Assembly: GCA_913055645.1 (NCBI GenBank)
Contig: CAJXLC010000002.1
Coordinates: forward strand, 1 to 64,000
From: an uncultured Pseudomonadota bacterium
GTDB lineage: Bacteria > Pseudomonadota > Zetaproteobacteria > Mariprofundales > Mariprofundaceae
DNA length: 64,000 bases
Direction: 5' to 3'
Shown: piece after piece, positions 2,815 through 15,341 of the stretch
Layout: each line of letters begins with the position of its first letter
Position numbering within the stretch: position 1 is the stretch's first letter
Notes under the pieces: generated by a model
What the model saw: the letters and a program-made list of their open reading frames with translations, nothing else
Told to the model about the DNA's origin: nothing
Database searches by the model: none
Translations under genes and position numbers: made by a program

Positions 2815-3057
2815 ATGCCTACGCAAGAAGATTCAAATCAACAACCCGAAATAGAAATCTGCTTTGGCCCTGAATGTGGTGAGGGTGGCGGATACAAACT
2901 CGCAAAAGATCTTGCCGATATTGGTATTAAGACTGTTATTGGTGATTGCCGCAATCAATGCCCTAATGCGTGTTTGGCATATGTGGATAATAAAATGGTG
3001 GTGAACGCGACCATTGAACGCGTACAGGCGAAAATCAACGAACTTCAATGCAAATAA
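2815..3057 (+). CDS. Small (2Fe-2S) thioredoxin-like ferredoxin-domain protein
   Basis: An 80-residue soluble protein with five cysteines: C16 and C21 in CFGPEC, then C45, C49 and C53 in CRNQCPNAC. The two pairs, the second CxxxC spaced, resemble thioredoxin-fold (2Fe-2S) ferredoxins and the related NuoE-like domains, although the first pair is closer together than in typical members. The ATG at 2815 is preferred because AAGGA sits 7 bases upstream; a longer reading frame from 2764 adds a hydrophobic-looking but unsupported extension. Electron transfer or metal binding is likely; the partner is unknown. A terminator follows directly. Confidence 0.6.
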   Translation: MPTQEDSNQQPEIEICFGPECGEGGGYKLAKDLADIGIKTVIGDCRNQCPNACLAYVDNKMVVNATIERVQAKINELQCK

Positions 3058-3090
3058 AAAAAGGGGAGCTTTCGCCCCCCTCTTTTTTAC
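3058..3090. terminator. Bidirectional rho-independent terminator
   Basis: A stem of AGGGGAGC paired with GCCCCCCT (one mismatch) around a TTTC loop, flanked by an A-run on the left and a T-run (TCTTTTTT) on the right. It can stop the (2Fe-2S) gene on the plus strand and the cysN transcript on the minus strand. Confidence 0.8.
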
Positions 3091-3114: not shown

Positions 3115-4395
3115 TTAAACAATCATACCTGCACCAACTGTATTGTTGGTAAAACTATCAATGATGATAAAGCTACCTGTGGTGCGATTATCGGCATATT
3201 TATCATAATGTAATGGTTGCTGTAATTTAAACGATACTGAACCAATCTCATTCATTGCCAGTTCATCAGCCTCATCCTGCGCTAGTGTATGAATATCTGT
3301 TTTGAAATTAATATCCGAAACCATCGCTTTAATTTGGTTGGTCGCATGCTTAATGATATATTTATTTCGGTTTTCCAACGGCTCATCACCAATCCAACAA
3401 ACATTGGCAGTTAATGCTTTGGTGTCCGAATCTTCCTGACCCGCATGCATCAACATATCACCACGAGAAACATCAATTTCATCGTTCAACGTAATCGTAA
3501 CACTCTGTGGTGCAAAAGCTTCTTGCAGGTTGCCATCAAAGGTAACAATTTCTTTGACTGTAGAAGTCTTGCCGGATGGTTTGACCACAATTTCATCACC
3601 CACTTTCACAGTGCCCGATGCAATGGTGCCCATAAAACCACGGTAATCTGGCAAATCGGCTGTTTGTGGGCGATTTAATAGTTGTACAGGCATACGGAAT
3701 GGTTTTTCATCCAAATCATCCAATACAGACATGGATTCAAGTGTTTCGAGTAATGTGTCGCCCTTATACCAGTCCATATTATCGCCACGAACCGATACCA
3801 TATCCCCCGTCAAAGCAGACATCGGAATACAAATTAAATCTTTCACACCCTGCTTGGCACAATATTCAGCCATGTCAGCCTTAATTTTTTCATAGGCTGC
3901 CTCATCATGGTCAACCAAATCCATCTTATTCACGGCCACAATCAAATGAGGAATGCCTAGAAGCCCCAAAATATGGGTATGACGTTTGGTTTGTGCCAAT
4001 ACGCCATGACGTGCATCAATCAAAATAATCGCTGCATTGGCAGTGGACGAACCCGTCACCATATTACGTGTGTACTGCTCATGCCCTGGGCAGTCTGCCA
4101 TAATAAACTTACGCTTAGGCGTTGCAAAATAGCGATATGCCACATCAATGGTGATACCTTGTTCGCGTTCTGCTGCTAGACCATCTGTTAACATTGCTAA
4201 ATCAATTTCAGCTGCAGATGAAACTTTATCAGCTCTTTTCTTTTTACGCACAGCCATCAATTGATCTTCAAATGCGCCTTTGGTATCAACAAGAAGGCGA
4301 CCAATCAAGGTGGATTTTCCATCATCAACACTGCCCACTGTCACCAAGCGCAGTAGTTCGATTTCTTTTGTTAGTTCAAAATTAAATTCAGTCAT
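3115..4395 (-). CDS. cysN: Sulfate adenylyltransferase subunit 1 (GTPase)
   Basis: The 426-residue GTPase subunit of ATP sulfurylase. With CysD it makes adenosine 5'-phosphosulfate (APS) from sulfate and ATP, driven by GTP hydrolysis. The GTPase motifs are G1 GSVDDGKST (residues 21-29), G3 DCPGHEQYT and G4 NKMD, followed by EF-Tu-like beta-barrel domains. There is no fused APS kinase (CysC), in line with the APS-type reductase encoded upstream. It is the last gene of the long minus-strand sulfur block, 57 bases after cysD, and a terminator follows. The first six residues (MTEFNF) are identical to the start of the sulfite reductase in the same block. Confidence 0.95.
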   Translation of the reverse strand: MTEFNFELTKEIELLRLVTVGSVDDGKSTLIGRLLVDTKGAFEDQLMAVRKKKRADKVSSAAEIDLAMLTDGLAAEREQGITIDVAYRYFATPKRKFIMADCPGHEQYTRNMVTGSSTANAAIILIDARHGVLAQTKRHTHILGLLGIPHLIVAVNKMDLVDHDEAAYEKIKADMAEYCAKQGVKDLICIPMSALTGDMVSVRGDNMDWYKGDTLLETLESMSVLDDLDEKPFRMPVQLLNRPQTADLPDYRGFMGTIASGTVKVGDEIVVKPSGKTSTVKEIVTFDGNLQEAFAPQSVTITLNDEIDVSRGDMLMHAGQEDSDTKALTANVCWIGDEPLENRNKYIIKHATNQIKAMVSDINFKTDIHTLAQDEADELAMNEIGSVSFKLQQPLHYDKYADNRTTGSFIIIDSFTNNTVGAGMIV

Positions 4396-4452: not shown

Positions 4453-5361
4453 CTAGAAGTATCCTTCTTTCTTCTTATCTTCCATCGAATTACTGCCATG
4501 ATCAATAATACGCGTTTCACGCTCTGATCGACGTGCCGCAGCAGCTTCAATCACAATTTCATCCATATTGCTTGCATCAGAGCGCACTGCGCCTGTGCAT
4601 GGGCTACAACCCAAGGTGCGGAACCGAGACATAATCATCTTAGGCTCTTCGCCTTCAAGCAATTGACCCTTATTCTCTTCATAATATGGAATAAGCATAT
4701 TCCCACGTTCAATCATGGGGCGTTCTTTGGCGAAATATAGCGGTACAATCGGAATTTCCTCTTCACGAATGTATGACCAAATATCCATTTCCGTCCAATT
4801 TGAAATCGGAAATACACGTACCGACTCGCCATCATGAATACGACCGTTATAAATATTCCATAGTTCAGGACGTTGATTCTTCGGATCCCACTGCCCAAAT
4901 TCATCACGCATGGAAAATACACGCTCTTTGGCACGTGAACGCTCTTCATCACGACGCGCGCCACCAAAAGCAGCATCATAACCACCTTCTTCCAAGGCAT
5001 CTAAAAGTCCTGTCGTTTTCAATGCGCCACAGCAACGCGCCACACCAAACTCTTTGGGGTTCATTCCCTTTTCAATGGCACTTTCATTGCGTCTCACAAT
5101 CAAATCAGCACCAATTTCTTCACAAAACGCATCACGAAAGTCATACATTTCTTTAAATTTAAAGCCTGTATCCACATGCAATAGTGAAAAAGGTAAGGGT
5201 GCAGGGTAAAACGCTTTGCGTGCAAGATGAACAAGCACACTCGAATCCTTACCCACAGAATACAACATCACAGGATTGCGAAATTCTGCCACCACTTCAC
5301 GAATAATGTGAATGGATTCAGCTTCCAATGCTTTAAGTTGTGTTAATTTATGTTCTGACAT
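4453..5361 (-). CDS. cysD: Sulfate adenylyltransferase subunit 2
   Basis: The catalytic PP-loop ATPase subunit of ATP sulfurylase, about 302 residues. It adenylylates sulfate to APS in complex with CysN. The PP-loop is SVGKDSS near residue 38, and the family stretches [29 protein letters not shown] and LGCSPCTGA are all present. The AGGAG box suits the second ATG (5361) better than the first (5367), which is only 3 bases away. The gene follows cysH by 6 to 12 bases, so the two are surely co-transcribed. Confidence 0.95.
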
Positions 5362-5373
5362 TTTCATAGACTC

Positions 5374-6096
5374 CTAAATTCCATCACCCGATTCACATTC
5401 ACCCTTAGGGGCTTTAAGTGAACTCACATGCAGACCGCACTCTGCCAACGTATCTTGGTTTTCCCACCACCAACGACCAGCGCGTGGGTCTTCACCCATA
5501 CTAATTGCCCGCGTACATGGCTCGCAACCAATGGATACATAAAATTCATCATGTAATGTATTGTATGGCAAATCATGCTCACGAATATATGCCCATACAT
5601 CTTTTTCTGTCCAATTGCGCATCGGGTTATACTTTTTCAAACCATACACAGGATCATCTTCTACAGGTGCAATTTCAGCACGGTTTGTCGCTTGATCTTT
5701 GCGTCGTCCGGTAATCCACGCTTCCATACCATGCAGGGCCTTTTCTAAAGGCTTCACCTTACGAATTTGACAACATAGTTTGCGATTTTCCACAGATTTA
5801 AGGAATAAATTCACACCATGCTCATGCACCATATTCTGCACAGCTTTTGAGTCTGGAAACAGTATATCAAGCACATTGCCATAACGTTCGCGTATCGCAT
5901 CCATCAACGCATAGGTCGCTTGCGGCAAACGCCCTGTATCCAATGTTACAATCCGAATATTTAAGTGATTGCGACAAATCAAATCAATCAACACCATACC
6001 CTGTGAACCCAAGCTACATGAATAAACCAACTTATCTCCATGCTTGGCTTTGGCTTCCCGTAATAGTGATACAGCTTCATCAATCAAAAGCTTCAT
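5374..6096 (-). CDS. cysH: Adenylyl-sulfate (APS) reductase, [4Fe-4S] type
   Basis: A 240-residue thioredoxin-dependent reductase turning APS into sulfite. The substrate type is shown by the paired cysteines CCQIRKVKPL and GCEPC, ligands of the [4Fe-4S] cluster present in APS reductases and absent in PAPS reductases. The catalytic ECGLH motif is near the C-terminus, followed by about 20 extra residues. The PP-loop-like region is SLGSQGM. The ATG at 6096 is chosen: GGAGG lies 4 bases upstream and the ATG overlaps the stop of the radical SAM-permease gene (ATGA), giving coupled translation. An APS-specific enzyme means no CysC/PAPS step is needed. Confidence 0.93.
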   Translation of the reverse strand: MKLLIDEAVSLLREAKAKHGDKLVYSCSLGSQGMVLIDLICRNHLNIRIVTLDTGRLPQATYALMDAIRERYGNVLDILFPDSKAVQNMVHEHGVNLFLKSVENRKLCCQIRKVKPLEKALHGMEAWITGRRKDQATNRAEIAPVEDDPVYGLKKYNPMRNWTEKDVWAYIREHDLPYNTLHDEFYVSIGCEPCTRAISMGEDPRAGRWWWENQDTLAECGLHVSSLKAPKGECESGDGI

Positions 6097-8726
6097 TGAA
6101 CCTCCAGTAATGATAATCCAACCACTGGCCACCAGTACGTAGAGACCAACATAAACAATAAAAATGCAGCGACAGATAGCAGTGCACCATAGCGCAGCAT
6201 GCTACCGCTATTTAAATAACCACTGGCATAAATCATAGCATTCGGCGGCGTACTCATAGGTAACATAAATGCAAAACCCGCCACAATACCAATCGTTAAA
6301 GCAACACTTACAGGATCAAGACCCGCAGACATACCAATCGGCATGGCAATTGGCAATACAATCGCCACAGCAGCTGCATTACTCACGCCTTCTGTAAAAA
6401 ATAGGGTCATCAATACCAATAGTGCTATCAATGACAAACCCATCACATCGCCTGGAATCAAATTATGCGCCAGCCATACTGCCGCACCTGTATCAGATAA
6501 TGCCTTACCAATCGCAATCGCACCGCCATACATCAGCACCACACTCCATGATACATGCTGCTCAATCGCCTTCCATGCCACCAAACGCAATGCAAACATC
6601 ACAACAACAGCAATCAAAGAAATACTTGCCAATGTATTGGCATGCCCAGCCAACATCCATGCCAACACCGTGAAACACATTAATACTGCCATCAACCAGC
6701 CTTTTACCCCAAGTCCACCCAATTCAAGTCGTCGCTGGGCAAAACGATGGCGTACAGCTTGTAAATCCAAGGTCACAAATGAAGTCATACGCAACAATAA
6801 ATACAACGCAACGGATAACACGCCAATCACCAATGGCAATGCCGCTAATGTCCATTGTAAAAATGAGAACGTATGCCCTGTAAGTTCAGCGCTCAAAGCA
6901 AGTGCCAAAGGCCCACGAGCGCCGCCAAGCAATGTCGTTACGCCACCAATAATCGCACCCCACGCTAGAGCAAAAAAGATAGCTTGCGCATAAGCGTGGC
7001 CTTTTTTCAAACCCAAACTTCGCACAATTTCCCAAGCAATCGGCAAAAATAATGCTGCCACAGCATGCTCTGGCATCACACATGCCATCAAAGCAGGAAG
7101 CAATAACATCGCACATAAAAGTTGTTTTGGGCTATGTGCAATACGATCTAGCATACCCAATGCCACTCGCTCGGATAAACCACTTTGCATCACACCAGCA
7201 ACCAACATAAAAGCACCGAGAATAAAAAACACCGCAGGATTGCCAAATAAGGCAAATACGTCCGAGGCTGACATGACCCCAAGCATGGGTAACAAAGCCA
7301 TACCTAATAAAGATGTCACCGCCAGAGGTAGTAATTGCGTGACCCACAATATCAAACATAACAAGAAAATAAGTAATGCCTGCCAACCTTCTGAACTTAA
7401 ACCTTCAGGCACATCGGAAACAGTTCCAATGGCAAATACCATCACAACCACCAACATAGCCACAAATGGTGCGGCCTGTGCCGCTAATAGGCGGTGGAAA
7501 GGTCTATCATCAGTTTTTTCACCTTTGCCAACACGCACATGCCTGCGCAAACCATCCAACCAACCACCCCAGTGTCTACCAAAAGATGAAGTCACCCAAC
7601 GTTCAGAGATGGCGGGTTGATTGCCATCTAGCACGCGACTTTCCATGGGTGTTAATACACGTCCCATATCACGCAAACGATGCGTAGGAAGCCCCGATGT
7701 TTCCAATAAATGATATTGCAACAACAATGCATTTTCTACATCATCCAAAGCTGGGATTTTCACATCCTGTAACGGTGTGCCTGGTAGAGGTCGAAATGGA
7801 ATCACCAAAGGTACAATACCTTTATCCACCAATGCTTTCAGCCCATCCAATGTTGATTGCAAAGGTTCCAACCCAACAATCAAATGGCTTACAACAGCAC
7901 CGGCTCTAAATACTTTATTCGCATGCTCCAGCGCATGCCAAATAGCTTCTTGTCCACCTTGACTCTCTTTACCCGGACAAATTTCCTCAAAACGTTTGTT
8001 ATCAAACACTTCCAAGTTGCAAATAAAAATGTCCAAGCCTGCTGCATACAACGCATCAATCACACTCACATCTTTTGGCGCAACTGTTTCCAAAGCAATT
8101 TGTCTATGACCCAAATGCCTTCTAAGTAGAGCAATCACAGGAATTAAGCGTGATAAACCTACATCATCATTGGGAGTGAAACCATTGTACAAATAGACTG
8201 TATCCACTTCGCGTTCTTCCAATGCTGCCAGTACAACTTCAACCAACTCCAAGGCATCACGCAAGGGCGGTTCTTCCGCATTTAACATTGAATCGAATTG
8301 GCAATAAGCACACGCTTGGTCTGGTTTTGCAAAAAAACCACAGCCCATAAATGGCTGTAAAATTAACAACCTATCATGCAAGGAAGCAAAGCTTCCCATG
8401 CGCGAACCTTTACGCGTCAACTTGCTATAAAAGGCTGGTGCTTCAACCAATTCAACGGTTTCTGACTCTCCACCACATGTCATAACCGCCTTGCCATCAT
8501 CCTCAAGCTGCAAAGAAAAACCACTGGCTTCGGTATAAGGCTGACCCACAGGTACAGAACAAAAATGTCCACTGGGCAAACGCACATCCAATGTTGATTC
8601 TGCACTGTTGGATTGCGCCAACCAGCGTGAACTATCAGGCAATCCATCCGGCAATGCCAAACCACGACTTACCAAAGAAAGCTTGGTACGCCCTGGGTTG
8701 GAAAAAGGATGGAGGTCGTCAGTCAT
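6093..8726 (-). CDS. Fusion protein: radical SAM domain + SLC13/DASS sodium:anion permease
   Basis: An 877-residue two-part protein. Residues about 1-400 look like a radical SAM enzyme. Three cysteines, C129, C139 and C142 (CGFFAKPDQACAYC), are spaced x9 and x2 rather than the usual CxxxCxxC, and the surrounding barrel-like stretches (VYLYNGFTP, QIALETVAPKD, ICNLEVFD, VIPFRPLPGTP) fit the fold. Residues about 410-877 form an SLC13/DASS sodium:sulfate/dicarboxylate symporter with roughly 11-12 membrane segments; the second-half signature TEGVSNAAAVAIVLP and the C-terminal MSTPPNAMIYASG are clear. It lies between the sulfite reductase (stop and start abut) and cysH (4-base overlap), so sulfate uptake is the obvious job for the permease half. 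The enzyme half has no evident role in sulfate reduction. No frameshift or stop lies in the join. Domain identity is fairly sure, function inferred. Confidence 0.85.
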   Translation of the reverse strand: MTDDLHPFSNPGRTKLSLVSRGLALPDGLPDSSRWLAQSNSAESTLDVRLPSGHFCSVPVGQPYTEASGFSLQLEDDGKAVMTCGGESETVELVEAPAFYSKLTRKGSRMGSFASLHDRLLILQPFMGCGFFAKPDQACAYCQFDSMLNAEEPPLRDALELVEVVLAALEEREVDTVYLYNGFTPNDDVGLSRLIPVIALLRRHLGHRQIALETVAPKDVSVIDALYAAGLDIFICNLEVFDNKRFEEICPGKESQGGQEAIWHALEHANKVFRAGAVVSHLIVGLEPLQSTLDGLKALVDKGIVPLVIPFRPLPGTPLQDVKIPALDDVENALLLQYHLLETSGLPTHRLRDMGRVLTPMESRVLDGNQPAISERWVTSSFGRHWGGWLDGLRRHVRVGKGEKTDDRPFHRLLAAQAAPFVAMLVVVMVFAIGTVSDVPEGLSSEGWQALLIFLLCLILWVTQLLPLAVTSLLGMALLPMLGVMSASDVFALFGNPAVFFILGAFMLVAGVMQSGLSERVALGMLDRIAHSPKQLLCAMLLLPALMACVMPEHAVAALFLPIAWEIVRSLGLKKGHAYAQAIFFALAWGAIIGGVTTLLGGARGPLALALSAELTGHTFSFLQWTLAALPLVIGVLSVALYLLLRMTSFVTLDLQAVRHRFAQRRLELGGLGVKGWLMAVLMCFTVLAWMLAGHANTLASISLIAVVVMFALRLVAWKAIEQHVSWSVVLMYGGAIAIGKALSDTGAAVWLAHNLIPGDVMGLSLIALLVLMTLFFTEGVSNAAAVAIVLPIAMPIGMSAGLDPVSVALTIGIVAGFAFMLPMSTPPNAMIYASGYLNSGSMLRYGALLSVAAFLLFMLVSTYWWPVVGLSLLEVQ

Positions 8727-11090
8727 TTAGATTTGAGAAATCTTCTCGACCACAATGCGCCACTGTGTATCAGATAGTTTCTCTTTCACATGTACTTTTT
8801 GACCTTGCTCTTCCAACGATAGCGGCACATTCTCAATCGGAGCGCCATCATCAAGGATGACTTCCAATTGCGAACCAATTGCCATGGTTGATAACTTAAT
8901 TTTGGTTTTCACAAAGTTCATTGGACATGCCACACCTGATAAATCCAAGCTTACTACATCTGAGGAAGATTCAGCTTCAACCGTTTCCTCTACCGTTTTT
9001 TCTACAGTTTCTTCTACCATGTCACCGGCATCAGACACCGCTGCAAAACGTTTGTCTGCCAAAGCAACCCAAGCACCTTGTACATCTTTAAGCTTGGTCA
9101 CACCTGCCGCTGGATTAGCCAAATCAATGCTCATCAATGCGCCTTGCACAGCATGAAAATGCTTCATGACTTCTGCATCACTACCCGCATGAGTCATGAA
9201 CAAAGCAAACACCTCTGAATCGTCTTCAGGTGCTTCACCATACGCTACCAAGAATGCTCTCGCTGTCGAAATCGCAGACCTACGCAAAGCTGATTGAGCC
9301 TCTGCCCAAAACATTGCATCAACGTGCGCACGTGCAATCAATAATTCATATTCAGCTTCAGAAATAAGCGCATCAGACATACTCAATACAGCACCTGCAC
9401 ACTCACCCTTCTTATTACCTTTGGTATTAAAGGCTTCGTTCTCATTCCAGTCATAAATAAGGCCTTCAACTTCACCAGCATCAGCCTTAAATGGAGCAAG
9501 AATTTCGGATAACCCTTCTTTACCCAAACGCCCAGCCCAGTCATGCATGGTTTCAGTGTCTTTACGCCCATTTTTATATGCATTTAACACTGCAATGCCT
9601 GCTTCTGGTGCATGTTTGGCTGGCACCCACTCTGAAGCAAATGCAAATGGCTGACCTGCAACACCAGAGCCACCCACATGCAATTGATAATGAGGCACAG
9701 GCTGACCCGCAACCTTCTTCGCCATGCCATGGAAACCCAAATCCGCAATATGATGACGACCACAAGAATGCTGACATCCCGATGCTTTCACCGTGATACC
9801 TGCCAATGTGCTATCTTGTTTCAAATCAACCATCATAGGCTGTAAAGCCTCAGCCAAACCACGACTGGAAGTAATACCCAAGCGGCATGTTTCGGTGCCA
9901 GGGCAAGCCGTAATATCAGAGATACCACGCGCAAATGATGTAGGAATACCTGCGTTACCAAGCATTTCCACCACATCGTCCACTTTATCTTCATGCACAC
10001 CAACAATAATCAAACCTTGCTCGGTGGTTACGCGCAATGCTTTGGTTTCGCCCAAACGCGCAGCCTCGGCTACAGCACGGCATTGTATTGGTGTTAAATC
10101 ACCACGAAATACGTTTAAAAGAATCGATTTCTTGCCATCATGCTGGTCAACAATACCAGACTCATTAAACGGCATAGCATCACTCGGTTCTCTCCAATTC
10201 GCTTCTGCATAACCAGTATCTGCTTGATGCGTTGATTCAATCACAGCACGTTGTTTTTTGTATTCTTCAATGAACCCTTCAGCGCCCAATTTTTGCATCA
10301 CATATTTCATGCGGGCACGAGCGCGACGTTTGCGATCAGAGAATTTGAAGTGAATGCGCATCAATGCCTCACCCACCAGTAAAACTTCTGATTCTTCAAT
10401 AAATTCTTCCAATAAAATTGCAGGTACAGGCTGCGAAGATAAACCACCCGCTGCCCAAACCTTAAAACCAGCCTTACCATCTTTATGTGTGGCAATAAAA
10501 CCAATATCGTGCATACCACTCAAGCCGCAATCGGTATCACAACCAGAAAAAGTGACTTTAAATTTGCGTGGAAACTGCTGAGCCAAGGGGTGACGTAAAA
10601 AATACTCTGCAAATTTACGCGCATGCACACTCACATCGGCATGCTCTGCTGGACACTGACCTGCTAAGAAACAACTTGTAACATTGCGCACGGTATTACC
10701 ACAGGCTTCACGTGAGGTTAAGCCTGCACCATCCATTTTTCTCAAAAATGGCACAACATCATCAAGGGCGACAAAATTCACCTGAATATCCTGGCGCGTC
10801 GTAATATGCACTACTTTTGCAGGCGTTTCAGTCAACGTACCATCAGTTGGTAAACAGCCACCATAGCTTTCCGCACAATCACCCAATACTTCCAGTTGTT
10901 CAGGTGTTAAATTACCACCAGGAAGCTTGCATCGAATCATCTGCACGCCTTCCTGACGCTGACCATACACACCCATCTGCAAACGAAATGGTGTAAAGCG
11001 CTCTTCTGGCATGATTCCCGCTTTAAAAGCCTGATAACCAGCTTCAAATTCATCCACGTCTGCTGTTTCTGTAAAATTAAATTCTGTCAT
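8727..11090 (-). CDS. Siroheme sulfite (nitrite/sulfite) reductase with C-terminal TusA domain
   Basis: A 787-residue cytoplasmic reductase that should make sulfide from sulfite. Two nitrite/sulfite reductase repeats occupy about residues 30-260 and 310-520. The second carries the siroheme/[4Fe-4S] ligands C396-x5-C402 and C439-x3-C443 (ACPGTETC, SGCQHSC). The first repeat keeps an equivalent set, C140-x5-C146 and C184-x3-C188, lost in most monomeric enzymes. A helical region (about 570-690, possibly HEPN-like), an acidic Glu/Val linker (691-708) and a TusA-like sulfur-carrier domain (711-787, active Cys722 in ACPMN) follow. The electron donor is not apparent; no flavoprotein subunit (CysJ) is encoded nearby, so ferredoxin is likely. 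It stands just before the radical SAM-permease gene with no gap. A dissimilatory role is unlikely given the assimilatory neighbours. Confidence 0.88.
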   Translation of the reverse strand: MTEFNFTETADVDEFEAGYQAFKAGIMPEERFTPFRLQMGVYGQRQEGVQMIRCKLPGGNLTPEQLEVLGDCAESYGGCLPTDGTLTETPAKVVHITTRQDIQVNFVALDDVVPFLRKMDGAGLTSREACGNTVRNVTSCFLAGQCPAEHADVSVHARKFAEYFLRHPLAQQFPRKFKVTFSGCDTDCGLSGMHDIGFIATHKDGKAGFKVWAAGGLSSQPVPAILLEEFIEESEVLLVGEALMRIHFKFSDRKRRARARMKYVMQKLGAEGFIEEYKKQRAVIESTHQADTGYAEANWREPSDAMPFNESGIVDQHDGKKSILLNVFRGDLTPIQCRAVAEAARLGETKALRVTTEQGLIIVGVHEDKVDDVVEMLGNAGIPTSFARGISDITACPGTETCRLGITSSRGLAEALQPMMVDLKQDSTLAGITVKASGCQHSCGRHHIADLGFHGMAKKVAGQPVPHYQLHVGGSGVAGQPFAFASEWVPAKHAPEAGIAVLNAYKNGRKDTETMHDWAGRLGKEGLSEILAPFKADAGEVEGLIYDWNENEAFNTKGNKKGECAGAVLSMSDALISEAEYELLIARAHVDAMFWAEAQSALRRSAISTARAFLVAYGEAPEDDSEVFALFMTHAGSDAEVMKHFHAVQGALMSIDLANPAAGVTKLKDVQGAWVALADKRFAAVSDAGDMVEETVEKTVEETVEAESSSDVVSLDLSGVACPMNFVKTKIKLSTMAIGSQLEVILDDGAPIENVPLSLEEQGQKVHVKEKLSDTQWRIVVEKISQI

Positions 11091-11284: not shown

Positions 11285-12109
11285 TTACGACTCACCGAAC
11301 TTTAATTCGCACGCCTGTTCGTATGTCACCAAATCAGTAATCGTTGGATTATCACCACACAGTGGACAGCTTGGATCTTTACGTAATTTCAACTTCTTCC
11401 ATTCCATACGCAGCGCATCAAAGACCATCAACCTACCTGACAACGAATCACCTATACCCAACAATTCTTTCACAGCTTCCACAGCCTGAATCGTTCCTAC
11501 AGCACCAGCCAAAGCACCCAAAATACCTGCTTCCGAACATGATGGCACCAAACCAGCAGGTGGTGGTTCTGGATACAAACAACGGTAACAAGGGCCTTCT
11601 TTATGCACATGCGGCTTGTAGGTTGCTACTTGCCCTTCAAAGCGGAACATGGCACCTGAAATCAATGGCTTTTTCTCAAAATAACATGCGTCATTCACTA
11701 AGAAACGAGTTGGAAAATTGTCACAACCATCAATAATCAAATCATATTCACGAACAATCTCACGAATATTGTCTTCAGTTACAAAGTAGTTATACGTATT
11801 CACTTTCACATCAGGGTTTAGCTCTTGCATAGTCTGCTTGGCAGATTCCACTTTTGGCAAACCAATACGACTTTGATTATGAATAATCTGACGTTGCAAA
11901 TTCGATGAATCCACCACATCCGCATCGGCAATACCAATGGTTCCAACGCCAGCTGCTGCCAAATAATACGCCACAGGCGAACCCAAACCGCCTGCACCAA
12001 TCATGAATACTTTCGCATTCAAGAGCTTTGATTGCCCTTCTGCGCCCACTTCAGGTAAAATAATATGGCGTGAGTAACGCTCAATCTGTTCTTCTGTAAA
12101 ATCAATCAT
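11285..12109 (-). CDS. MoeB/ThiF-family adenylyltransferase (E1-like)
   Basis: A 274-residue E1-like enzyme that adenylylates the C-terminal glycine of a MoaD/ThiS-type carrier. Motifs: nucleotide loop GAGGLGSP near residue 39, SNLQRQ, the CDNFPTR segment with the catalytic Asp region, and two zinc CxxC pairs, CYRC (about residue 178) and CPLC (about 250). There is no C-terminal rhodanese domain, so sulfur must come from another donor, possibly the TusA domain of the neighbouring sulfite reductase. The neighbours (ubiquitin-like carrier, cysK, thrC, NIL protein) point to sulfur carriage for amino-acid synthesis rather than molybdopterin or thiamine. Called moeB in many genomes; the specific role here is inferred. 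Confidence 0.88.
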   Translation of the reverse strand: MIDFTEEQIERYSRHIILPEVGAEGQSKLLNAKVFMIGAGGLGSPVAYYLAAAGVGTIGIADADVVDSSNLQRQIIHNQSRIGLPKVESAKQTMQELNPDVKVNTYNYFVTEDNIREIVREYDLIIDGCDNFPTRFLVNDACYFEKKPLISGAMFRFEGQVATYKPHVHKEGPCYRCLYPEPPPAGLVPSCSEAGILGALAGAVGTIQAVEAVKELLGIGDSLSGRLMVFDALRMEWKKLKLRKDPSCPLCGDNPTITDLVTYEQACELKFGES

Positions 12110-12126
12110 GTTTTAACCTCAATATC

Positions 12127-12199
12127 ACCACAGAGAAGCACAGAGGCACAGAGAAAAACTTTATAAATAGCTCTTTCGTGCTTCGTGGCTTCGTGGTTA
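12127..12199. repeat. CACAGAG / CTTCGTG heptamer repeat
   Basis: Between cysK and the E1-enzyme gene lie three copies of CACAGAG (12129-12135, 12139-12145, 12147-12153), an AT-rich middle, then TTTCGTG, CTTCGTG and CTTCGTG (12174-12195). The two sides are partly complementary (with a wobble and a mismatch per heptamer), so a long imperfect hairpin is possible. I recall similar CACAGAG/CACGAAG intergenic sequences in unrelated bacteria; their role is unknown to me. Confidence 0.75.
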
Positions 12200-12204
12200 A
12201 AAAA

Positions 12205-13137
12205 CTAAACTTCAATACCTTTAAATAAATCCGTAGACATATAACGCTCTGCCATAGAAGGCAAGATGACGACAATACGTTTGCCTTTCATCTCTGCTTT
12301 TGCTGCCACATTTAAAGCGGCACACACCGCCGCACCTGAAGAAATGCCGCCTGGAATACCTTCTTCATCTGCCAAACGCTGTGCCATGGCAAAGGCATTA
12401 TCATTGGAAACCTTTTCTACACCATCGATGATGTCGACATTTAGATTTTTCGGTATAAAACCAGCACCAATACCTTGAATTTTATGGGGCCCAGGCTCGC
12501 CACCCGATAAAATCGGTGAATCCGTAGGCTCTACTGCAAAAGCTTTAAAATCGGCATTGCGTGATTTTAGGACTTCTGAAATACCTGTAATCGTACCACC
12601 AGTACCCACGCCAGCCACCAAAGCATCCACCTTGCCATCACAATCAGTCCAAATTTCTTCGGCGGTTGTTTGACGGTGAATTTCAGGGTTAGCAGGGTTT
12701 TCAAATTGCTGTGGCATAAATCCACCTTCAGTCTTCTCAACCAATTCAGTTGCTTTAGCAATCGCTCCCTTCATACCCAATTCAGCAGGTGTCAATACAA
12801 GTTCAGCACCCAAAAGCTTAAGCAACTTACGGCGCTCCAAACTCATCGACTCAGGCATGGTAAGAATACAACGATAACCTTTCGCACGTGCAACAAATGC
12901 CAAGGCAATACCAGTATTCCCCGAGGTTGGCTCAATAATCACACCACCTTCTTTGAGAGAGCCATCGGCTTCAGCAGCGTTAATCATAGCATTACCGATA
13001 CGATCTTTGACGGAGTTGAGTGGATTATAAAACTCACATTTCACAAGAATTTCAGCATCCAAATCCGCGCCAATACGATTCAAACGAATCAGCGGTGTGT
13101 GTCCAATAGTTTCTGAAGCATTATTATAAATAGCCAT
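12205..13137 (-). CDS. cysK: Cysteine synthase (O-acetylserine sulfhydrylase)
   Basis: A 310-residue PLP enzyme of fold type II making cysteine from O-acetylserine and sulfide (or a protein thiocarboxylate in CysM-like members). The PLP lysine lies in NSVKDRIG near residue 44. The substrate loop TSGNTG and the phosphate-binding GTGGT are present. Length and sequence fit CysK; a lid change as in CysM from mycobacteria was not obvious. It follows the NIL gene by one base, so the two are co-translated or at least co-transcribed. Confidence 0.93.
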
Positions 13138-13138
13138 A

Positions 13139-13381
13139 TCAGCCCTCGATTACGTTTTGTTCAATGGGTTCGACATGCACACCATCCTGTGCTTCCAACC
13201 ACTTTACCGATGCTTCCACAACATCTCTACTACCTTCAATCTCAAGTCCAACCAGTCCCATACCTTCTTTTACTGCAGCAGTACGGATATTGGTGACAAC
13301 ATCAAATTCTTTTGCCAATTTCCAAATAACTGGCTCGGTCACTGCACCTTGATCAAAATTCAAATAAACACGTAATTTCAT
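13139..13381 (-). CDS. NIL-domain protein
   Basis: An 80-residue single-domain protein of the NIL family, an ACT-like ferredoxin-fold domain otherwise found at the C-terminus of the methionine importer ATPase MetN and in some ferredoxins. The typical strand/helix order shows in [29 protein letters not shown] and [10 protein letters not shown]. There are no cysteines, so it is not an Fe-S protein. In MetN this domain binds methionine to inhibit transport. Here, in a SAM-riboswitch block, a sensor of methionine or a helper for the sulfur carrier is possible but unproven. It sits between the carrier gene and cysK. Confidence 0.8.
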
Positions 13382-13404
13382 ATTGAGCTCCTTAGAAAAT
13401 AAAT

Positions 13405-13512
13405 TGATTGTTCGAGAGCAAAGCTTGGTGAATTTGAGAAGCGTAGCGTATTAAAAATAAGCACACATAAACATCGCCAAATTCACCGTAACACAGCTAT
13501 CGGACCAACAGG
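13405..13512. repeat. Structured intergenic element, diverged copy C
   Basis: The gap between the NIL gene and the carrier gene holds a 10-base perfect inverted repeat, GGTGAATTTG (13427-13436) and CAAATTCACC (13478-13487). It is followed by GTAACACAGCTATCGGACCAACAGG, given here as GTAACACAGC plus TATCGGACCAACAGG, closely matching the right end of the 85-nt elements at 11187 and 51129. The left part, with GATTGTTCGAGAG, is more diverged. Probably the same family with a replaced stem. Confidence 0.5.
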
Positions 13513-13791
13513 TTATTTTCCACCTGCGATTGCAGGCACGATAGATACTTCATCCCCATCTTTCAATTCAGTGTCACGACCGTTTAGAAAACGAACGTCT
13601 TCATCATTCAAATAAACATTTACAAAACGACGAATTTCGCCACTTTCATCACACAAACGTTCTTTCAAGCCAGCATGTGCTGCTTCAAGATTATCAATCA
13701 TTGCGCCAATGGTTGCACCCTCAATGGATACTTCATCAGCACCAGCGGTTAGTTTACGCAAAGGGGTTGGAATACGTACAGTTACAGTCAT
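13513..13791 (-). CDS. MoaD/ThiS-like sulfur-carrier protein ending in GGK
   Basis: A 92-residue beta-grasp protein of the MoaD/ThiS/CysO type. The fold shows in VTVRIPTPLRKLTAG, NVYLNDEDVRFL, the DGDEVSIVPAIAGG end and the family length. In these carriers the terminal Gly-Gly is adenylylated by an E1 (here the MoeB-like protein) and turned into a thiocarboxylate that hands sulfur to a PLP enzyme. Here Gly90-Gly91 is followed by Lys92, so the tail would have to be trimmed first, as known for the related HcyS and QbsE carriers; no peptidase is encoded next to it. Its neighbours thrC, NIL and cysK suggest a role in cysteine or homocysteine synthesis. Confidence 0.88.
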   Translation of the reverse strand: MTVTVRIPTPLRKLTAGADEVSIEGATIGAMIDNLEAAHAGLKERLCDESGEIRRFVNVYLNDEDVRFLNGRDTELKDGDEVSIVPAIAGGK

Positions 13792-13824: not shown

Positions 13825-15075
13825 TTAGTTTGATGCAACGCCATCGGCTTCTGCCAATACGTCAAATTCTTTTAAGGATGCACTAATCACGCGCGGCTTA
13901 CTCACTTCATTAATCACAGCTTCTTGAGTTTTCAAACCATTACCCGTAATACACAATACTATCGACTCATCACGTGGAATTTTACCCGATTCAATCAGTT
14001 TCTTAGCACAACCCAAGGTTACACCACCTGCTGTTTCTGCAAAGATACCTTCGGTTTCAGCCAGTAATTTCATCGCAGCAATCACTTCTTCATCGGATAC
14101 ATCTTCTGCATAGCCGCCCGATTCTTTCATAACGCGATTGGCATAAAAACCATCGGCTGGATTACCAATCGCCAAAGATTTGGCAATGGTATCAGCTTTC
14201 ACAGGATGAATCATATCGGTATCATCTTTCACTGATTTCGCAATCGGGGAGCAACCTGTCGCCTGTGCACCATAAACGGCTGTTTGATTATCTTCAATCA
14301 AGCCAAGCTTAATAAATTCCTTGATGGATTTATCCACTTTCGTACACAATGAACCAGAAGCCATCGGCACGACCACATGCTTCGGTGCTTTCCAGCCTAA
14401 CTGCTCCATCATTTCATAACCCAGTGATTTCGACCCTTCAGCATAGAATGGACGCACATTCACATTCACAAAGGCCCAACCATATTTACCCGCTATTTCG
14501 GAGCACAAGCGATTAACGTCATCATACTGACCTTTGATACCGATCATATTGGTGCCGAAAATACCTGCGCCCAATACTTTCCCTTGCTCCAAATCCTCTG
14601 GAATAAACACATACGATTCCAAGCCAGCTGCCGCCGCATTGGCAGCCACAGAACCTGCAAGGTTACCTGTTGATGCACATGCCACTGTTTTAAAACCAAA
14701 TTCAACCGCTTTGGATAATGCCACAGAAACCACACGATCCTTAAACGACAACGTCGGATAACAAACCGAATCATTCTTAATATATAATTCTTTCACACCC
14801 AAAGCTTCAGCAAGACGATCAGCACGAATCAACGGCGTAAAGCCATTGTTTGCACCAACTTTAGGCTCACCATCAATGGGCAATAATTCTTTATAACGCC
14901 ACATGTTTTGTGGGCGCGATTCAATCAATTCACGGGTCAACTTACCTTCAAGTTTTTCGTAATCGTAGACCACTTCCAATGGACCAAAACAAAACTCACA
15001 AACGTGTGTGGGCTGAATATCATATTCTTGACCACACTCACGACATTTCAAGGCACGAACAATGCTTTCACTCAT
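13825..15075 (-). CDS. thrC: Threonine synthase
   Basis: A 416-residue PLP enzyme of the threonine synthase family, normally converting O-phosphohomoserine to threonine. An N-terminal zinc-ribbon-like segment (CRECGQEY ... HVCEFC) precedes the catalytic fold; the PLP lysine is in LSFKDRVV near residue 111, with the family ASTGNLAGS loop. GGAG stands 9 bases before ATG 15075. It is the first gene after a SAM-I riboswitch and terminator, unusual for a threonine gene. The family also uses phosphohomoserine, the branch point to methionine, so a sulfur-transfer activity is imaginable; ordinary threonine synthesis remains the default reading. Confidence 0.88.
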   Translation of the reverse strand: MSESIVRALKCRECGQEYDIQPTHVCEFCFGPLEVVYDYEKLEGKLTRELIESRPQNMWRYKELLPIDGEPKVGANNGFTPLIRADRLAEALGVKELYIKNDSVCYPTLSFKDRVVSVALSKAVEFGFKTVACASTGNLAGSVAANAAAAGLESYVFIPEDLEQGKVLGAGIFGTNMIGIKGQYDDVNRLCSEIAGKYGWAFVNVNVRPFYAEGSKSLGYEMMEQLGWKAPKHVVVPMASGSLCTKVDKSIKEFIKLGLIEDNQTAVYGAQATGCSPIAKSVKDDTDMIHPVKADTIAKSLAIGNPADGFYANRVMKESGGYAEDVSDEEVIAAMKLLAETEGIFAETAGGVTLGCAKKLIESGKIPRDESIVLCITGNGLKTQEAVINEVSKPRVISASLKEFDVLAEADGVASN

Positions 15076-15130: not shown

Positions 15131-15160
15131 AAAAAAACCTCCGCGAGATAAGCAGAGGTT
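15131..15160 (-). terminator. Riboswitch-controlled intrinsic terminator
   Basis: On the minus strand, AACCTC pairs perfectly with GAGGTT around a short loop and is followed by a run of seven T's (15137-15131). It stands between the SAM-I aptamer and thrC, the position of an expression platform. Premature stop at high SAM is the likely outcome. Confidence 0.8.
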
Positions 15161-15203: not shown

Positions 15204-15341
15204 CCGACCATCATCGCTCTCGGTACAAAACCGAGCAGGCGTTGGCACCATTCTCTACATGTAAAACATTCGTTTAACCTGTAGTCGGTTGCCGCAGTTT
15301 CATAAGGCCTGTAACCCTCCACTGCTCTGGATAAAAATCGG
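15204..15341 (-). ncRNA. SAM-I (S-box) riboswitch aptamer
   Basis: Read on the minus strand, the aptamer shows the SAM-I core in order: TTATCCAGAGCAGTGGAGGG, then AGGCCTTATGAAAC, GCGGCAACC, GGTGCCAA, CCTGCTCGG and a P4 hairpin (CTCGG / CCGAG) ending AGCGATGA. The closing P1 stem is CCGATTTTTATC (15341-15330) with GATGATGGTCGG (15215-15204), 12 pairs with one mismatch. It lies 129 bases upstream of thrC, with a terminator between. SAM binding should stop transcription of the sulfur block. Confidence 0.93.

Follow-up and report, generated by a model that had tools for sequence, protein, structure and literature searches.

Some transporters carry a fused product-sensing domain, as MetN does with NIL and SulP with STAS. 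VcINDY, a DASS dicarboxylate transporter with SNT/SNT substrate motifs, has no enzymatic domain, and the N-terminus of DASS proteins such as VcINDY is cytosolic. Within the DASS/SLC13 family, bacterial sulfate transporters of the Rhodobacter capsulatus type serve assimilatory sulfate uptake and are known from assimilatory organisms (PMC5840216); no enzyme fusion has been reported for them. On the enzyme side, the closest described proteins are the NitD (MSMEG_0568) radical SAM proteins, which are encoded in the nitrilase/cyanide Nit1C cluster without a transporter and have been described as closest to the 'biotin synthase-related' COG2516 (PMC1199592). The locus analysed here, in a genome of the iron-oxidising Zetaproteobacteria (Mariprofundaceae), joins a relative of the latter to a DASS permease within a cys operon. 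The term 'window' denotes the whole stretch of DNA that was analysed, 64,000 nucleotides in length.

The cluster spans 15337 to 3056 of the minus strand, with the gene order thrC-thiS-NIL-cysM-moeB-cysI-(rSAM-DASS)-cysH-cysD-cysN, and the common strand and spacing of the genes point to one transcript for all of it. The features around the fusion gene are the following:

15208..15337, minus strand: SAM-I riboswitch (RF00162), operon leader, in the same place in 14 relatives
15136..15160, minus strand: terminator-like hairpin after the riboswitch
13825..15075, minus strand: thrC-like PLP enzyme, the operon's first gene
13513..13791, minus strand: ThiS/SAMP1-like sulfur carrier, ending in AIAGGK
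13139..13381, minus strand: NIL-domain protein, 80 aa
12205..13137, minus strand: cysteine synthase, cysK/cysM type
11285..12109, minus strand: moeB/thiF-like E1 enzyme
8727..11090, minus strand: cysI-like sulfite reductase with a C-terminal TusA domain
5374..6096, minus strand: cysH, thioredoxin-type APS reductase, its start at 6096 overlapping the fusion stop
4453..5367, minus strand: cysD
3115..4395, minus strand: cysN
3056..3087, minus strand: strong terminator-like hairpin after cysN, likely the end of the operon

The leader scores 72.2 bits against RF00162 (gathering threshold 44.4) and is the sole SAM-I riboswitch in the source genome. Wherever thrC is in view in relatives, the riboswitch lies upstream of it (6/6 and 8/8). 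G062, a genome from another family of the order, is an exception to this linkage of riboswitch and operon: the part that was read ahead of its cysI contains no thrC, and its riboswitch is found on a different contig. The operon holds an enzyme for every step from sulfate to cysteine, i.e. activation by CysDN, APS reduction by CysH, sulfite reductase (SiR) and cysteine formation. The genes for the ThiS/SAMP1-like carrier, the NIL protein, the cysteine synthase and MoeB stand in a row (11285-13791, minus strand), an arrangement that resembles a pathway for cysteine or homocysteine synthesis with a carrier protein. In relatives, DsrE2 and TusA genes lie between cysH and cysD (L049:10374-11123); in the window these two genes are adjacent (5367-5374) and the DsrE2/TusA pair is missing there.

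The fusion itself comprises the following features:

6093..8726, minus strand: rSAM-DASS fusion protein, 877 aa
7527..8726, minus strand: radical SAM (rSAM) half, residues 1-400, variant_rSAM / NitD-like
8301..8342, minus strand: CX9CX2C motif (C129, C139, C142), predicted [4Fe-4S]/SAM site, invariant in 22 relatives and with the same spacing in NitD
7527..7592, minus strand: conserved amphipathic tail of the radical SAM half, residues 379-400, also present in split versions
6117..7463, minus strand: DASS/SLC13 permease half, residues 422-870
7065..7073, minus strand: PEH (residues 552-554), replacing the first SNT motif of dicarboxylate DASS carriers
6375..6383, minus strand: SNA (residues 782-784), replacing the second SNT motif

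A first-pass annotation had described a radical SAM enzyme and a sodium:anion symporter in one frame, placed between sulfite reductase and cysH with coupled junctions and carrying the above cysteine set, and all of this is borne out. The frame runs uninterrupted over 877 codons from 8726 to 6093, while the plus strand over the region is crowded with stops. At the 5' junction, the cysI TAA (8729-8727) directly abuts the fusion ATG at 8726; at the 3' junction, the fusion TGA (6095-6093) overlaps the cysH ATG (6096), with a GGAGG just upstream. Both halves exceed family cut-offs in Pfam and NCBIfam. For the radical SAM half these are Radical_SAM (PF04055; residues 137-286, 32.2 bits, cut-off 29.5) and variant_rSAM NF045502 (residues 62-330, 184 bits, cut-off 125), and for the permease half Na_sulph_symp (residues 422-870, 190 bits, cut-off 27) and DASS TIGR00785 (residues 439-866, 245.6 bits, cut-off 198.6). 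A PADLOC search for anti-phage systems gave no match. The full-length AlphaFold model is poor (pLDDT 52, 14 sequences), and the domain interface is poorly defined in the models.

By sequence, the N-terminal half is a member of the Radical SAM superfamily with its three cluster cysteines in a variant spacing. The CX9CX2C, PGK and PF.P..GTPL motifs are common to this half and to NitD of the same superfamily. A beta-4 Glu (E239), a beta-5 GLE and the beta-6 PF..P..GTPL are present as well, and these are mostly shared with NitD. At 25-29% identity NitD is a distant cousin, and with 94.7 bits the half falls well outside the NitD/MSMEG_0568 family TIGR04043 (cut-off 303.7). NitD also ends differently, with a C-terminal CGxCGAC motif that is absent from the fusion protein, in which the amphipathic tail is found instead. 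This tail has a hydrophobic moment of up to 0.69, is specific to the class and forms the C-terminus of the split radical SAM proteins. Two further cysteines, C236 and C250 (7977-8021, minus strand), are invariant in the class and not Cys in NitD; they are possible auxiliary-cluster or active-site residues. A distant relative of the half with a classic CX3CX2C motif was also seen beside terpene-cyclase-like and ATPase-like genes (L104:5539-6621, minus strand).

Comparison of the window with eight relatives gives a dN/dS of 0.035-0.15 for the radical SAM half, which in most pairs does not exceed that of the DASS half and is as low as that of the neighbouring cysI. Judged from these ratios, purifying selection on the half is strong. 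Since the cluster and SAM-binding motifs are intact in addition, the half is probably catalytically active, and knowledge of the family suggests that it binds a [4Fe-4S] cluster and SAM. Modelled alone, it reaches a pTM of 0.66, with a pLDDT below 50 in the Cys loop. The nearest solved fold to its barrel is HydE, followed by biotin synthase (BioB), lipoyl synthase (LipA) and PylB; the half differs from HydE, BioB and LipA by its CX9CX2C spacing, and despite the likeness in fold no sequence match was found among PDB sequences.

Sequence and fold both place the C-terminal half among the DASS proteins, with NaDC3, VcINDY and NaS1 as its fold neighbours. With PEH and SNA it lacks the two SNT motifs by which DASS dicarboxylate carriers are recognized. 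Outside the class, its closest relative (in genome G065) has the same PEH/SNA motifs and belongs to a cysH-cysI(TusA)-sat-DASS operon, in which no radical SAM gene is present. The sulfite reductase-TusA fusion is also seen in that genome (L043). The nearest other DASS proteins outside the class, of the xEH/SNG type, are encoded outside cys operons, several of them beside SulP and UspA-like genes as read from sequence; two loci (L109 and L119) have a type with GEH/SNG motifs beside UspA-like and SulP genes. Across eight genomes tested (seven Zetaproteobacterial ones and G065), no sulfate ABC permease scored over the cut-off, and SulP matches occurred in all eight. Based on family knowledge and operon context, the DASS half is most likely the sulfate importer.

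Recurrence of the fusion beside cysH and cysDN in related genomes, proposed as a check in the first-pass annotation, is confirmed, and conservation throughout the class had escaped that annotation, as had the operon's leading riboswitch. The full fusion is found in about 50 related genomes at identities down to 60%, other families of the order included, and most loci keep the order moeB-cysI-(rSAM-DASS)-cysH-cysDN. A profile of the radical SAM half detects the gene in 73 of 78 Zetaproteobacteria genomes and in all 39 near-complete ones, nearly always fused to DASS; across the order, the NF045502 cut-off is exceeded in 70 of 77 genomes. Within the class the gene always lies beside the permease and never elsewhere. 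Separate, unlinked halves had been named as a sign that would speak against a genuine fusion. In six genomes the halves are indeed separate genes, yet they remain adjacent, in the same order and in the same operon, and in most cases they overlap or lie apart by a few bases. A midpoint-rooted tree was built from 38 proteins, five of the six split cases among them; in it, the split versions form one clade (support 93), corresponding to one change. The other family of the order included in this tree is fused. Within the limits of midpoint rooting, the likely history is therefore an ancestral fusion that broke apart once. Since one clade keeps the halves as separate proteins, their covalent attachment is dispensable.

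The survey of the radical SAM half covered genomes of Pseudomonadota, plasmids and viral contigs. Among 399 genomes of the phylum, scores run to hundreds of bits and then fall to 61 for the next relatives, and 14 of the 15 that were fetched are NitD proteins in Nit1C clusters. The plasmid scan gave distant MSMEG_0568 proteins only, and two scans of viral contigs gave no relatives. A contig search with one query sequence found close relatives only, named public MAGs among them. A long DASS frame in genome G310 was considered as a second fusion and rejected, since the DASS is a typical one and the added length comes from a low-complexity extension of the frame ahead of it, which is not homologous.

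The first-pass annotation knew of no role for such a protein and had missed the known family of the radical SAM half (variant_rSAM/NitD). No earlier description of a radical SAM-permease fusion was found in the open-access literature searched. Both halves belong to known families, and it is their union in one protein that appears to be undescribed. Together, the fusion and the riboswitch-led operon suggest that sulfate uptake and SAM chemistry are linked. The protein could be the sulfate-entry module of Zetaproteobacterial sulfur assimilation, i.e. a DASS sulfate permease bearing a catalytically competent radical SAM enzyme on its N-terminus, where the cytosolic location would suit an attached Fe-S/SAM enzyme. 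Because every step of the pathway has its enzyme and none needs radical chemistry, the target of the radical SAM half would be the permease itself, or a small ligand there, and not a pathway intermediate. Its activity would require two end products of sulfur assimilation, SAM and an Fe-S cluster. Uptake would thereby respond to sulfur status through the protein, in parallel with the RNA-level response of the riboswitch. Such a protein would be alike in working to MetN-NIL and SulP-STAS, the domains of which are not radical SAM enzymes. We tentatively prefer the reading that the half modifies or gates the permease and links uptake to SAM and Fe-S status. Its stricter form, in which the built-in enzyme post-translationally modifies or gates the transporter and the supply of SAM and Fe-S clusters sets sulfate uptake, is doubtful at present. 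Several points count against the preferred reading: the split clade does without a covalent link, the nearest family, NitD, works in a small-molecule pathway without a transporter, SulP is present and could also carry sulfate, and the Cys loop and the domain interface are poorly defined in the models.

The main rival is that the half is an ordinary small-molecule enzyme of the BioB/HydE/LipA kind, merely placed at the permease, with the fusion fixing only co-expression or membrane placement. Perhaps it would then take part in sulfur-carrier or cofactor chemistry with TusA, ThiS and DsrE2 of the operon. We regard this as a serious possibility, though still short of probable. It agrees with the intact catalytic motifs, with fold neighbours whose substrates are small molecules or whose reaction is sulfur insertion, with the metabolic cluster of the NitD relatives, with the surrounding sulfur-relay genes (SiR-TusA, ThiS, MoeB, DsrE2 and TusA) and with a split clade that manages without fusion. 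However, this reading sits poorly with a gene that, throughout the class, is confined to the side of the permease, and the operon has no visible missing step and offers no obvious substrate.

It is unlikely that the permease imports an organosulfur compound, e.g. a sulfonate, which the radical SAM half degrades to sulfite or sulfide for the operon. Such salvage had been among the first suggestions for this protein, and DASS proteins do carry organic anions as well, enzyme and importer are parts of one molecule and sulfite reductase adjoins the fusion. However, the operon is a complete sulfate-to-cysteine one, in which CysD, CysN and CysH need sulfate and not the product of an organosulfur compound; the related PEH/SNA DASS in the sat-cysH-cysI operon manages without a radical SAM protein, and sulfate is plentiful in the sea. 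Slightly less likely still is a non-catalytic SAM/Fe-S sensor acting as an allosteric gate of the permease. The operon already senses SAM as its end product and the half is fused to a transporter, but the invariance of all cluster cysteines and a selection as strong as on an enzyme speak against it, and a separate protein suffices in one clade. An assembly or annotation artefact, or a chance frame, can be dismissed, because the same frame occurs in about 50 independent genomes, in the named public MAGs and in G018 and G048, whose genomes are single contigs.

The union of a radical SAM enzyme with a permease is conserved across a whole bacterial class and is usually led by a SAM riboswitch. If the enzyme does control or modify the permease, it would represent a novel mode of nutrient-uptake control. 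The variant_rSAM/NitD superfamily gains a member with a well-defined pathway, sulfate assimilation, and the chemistry of the superfamily thereby becomes testable.
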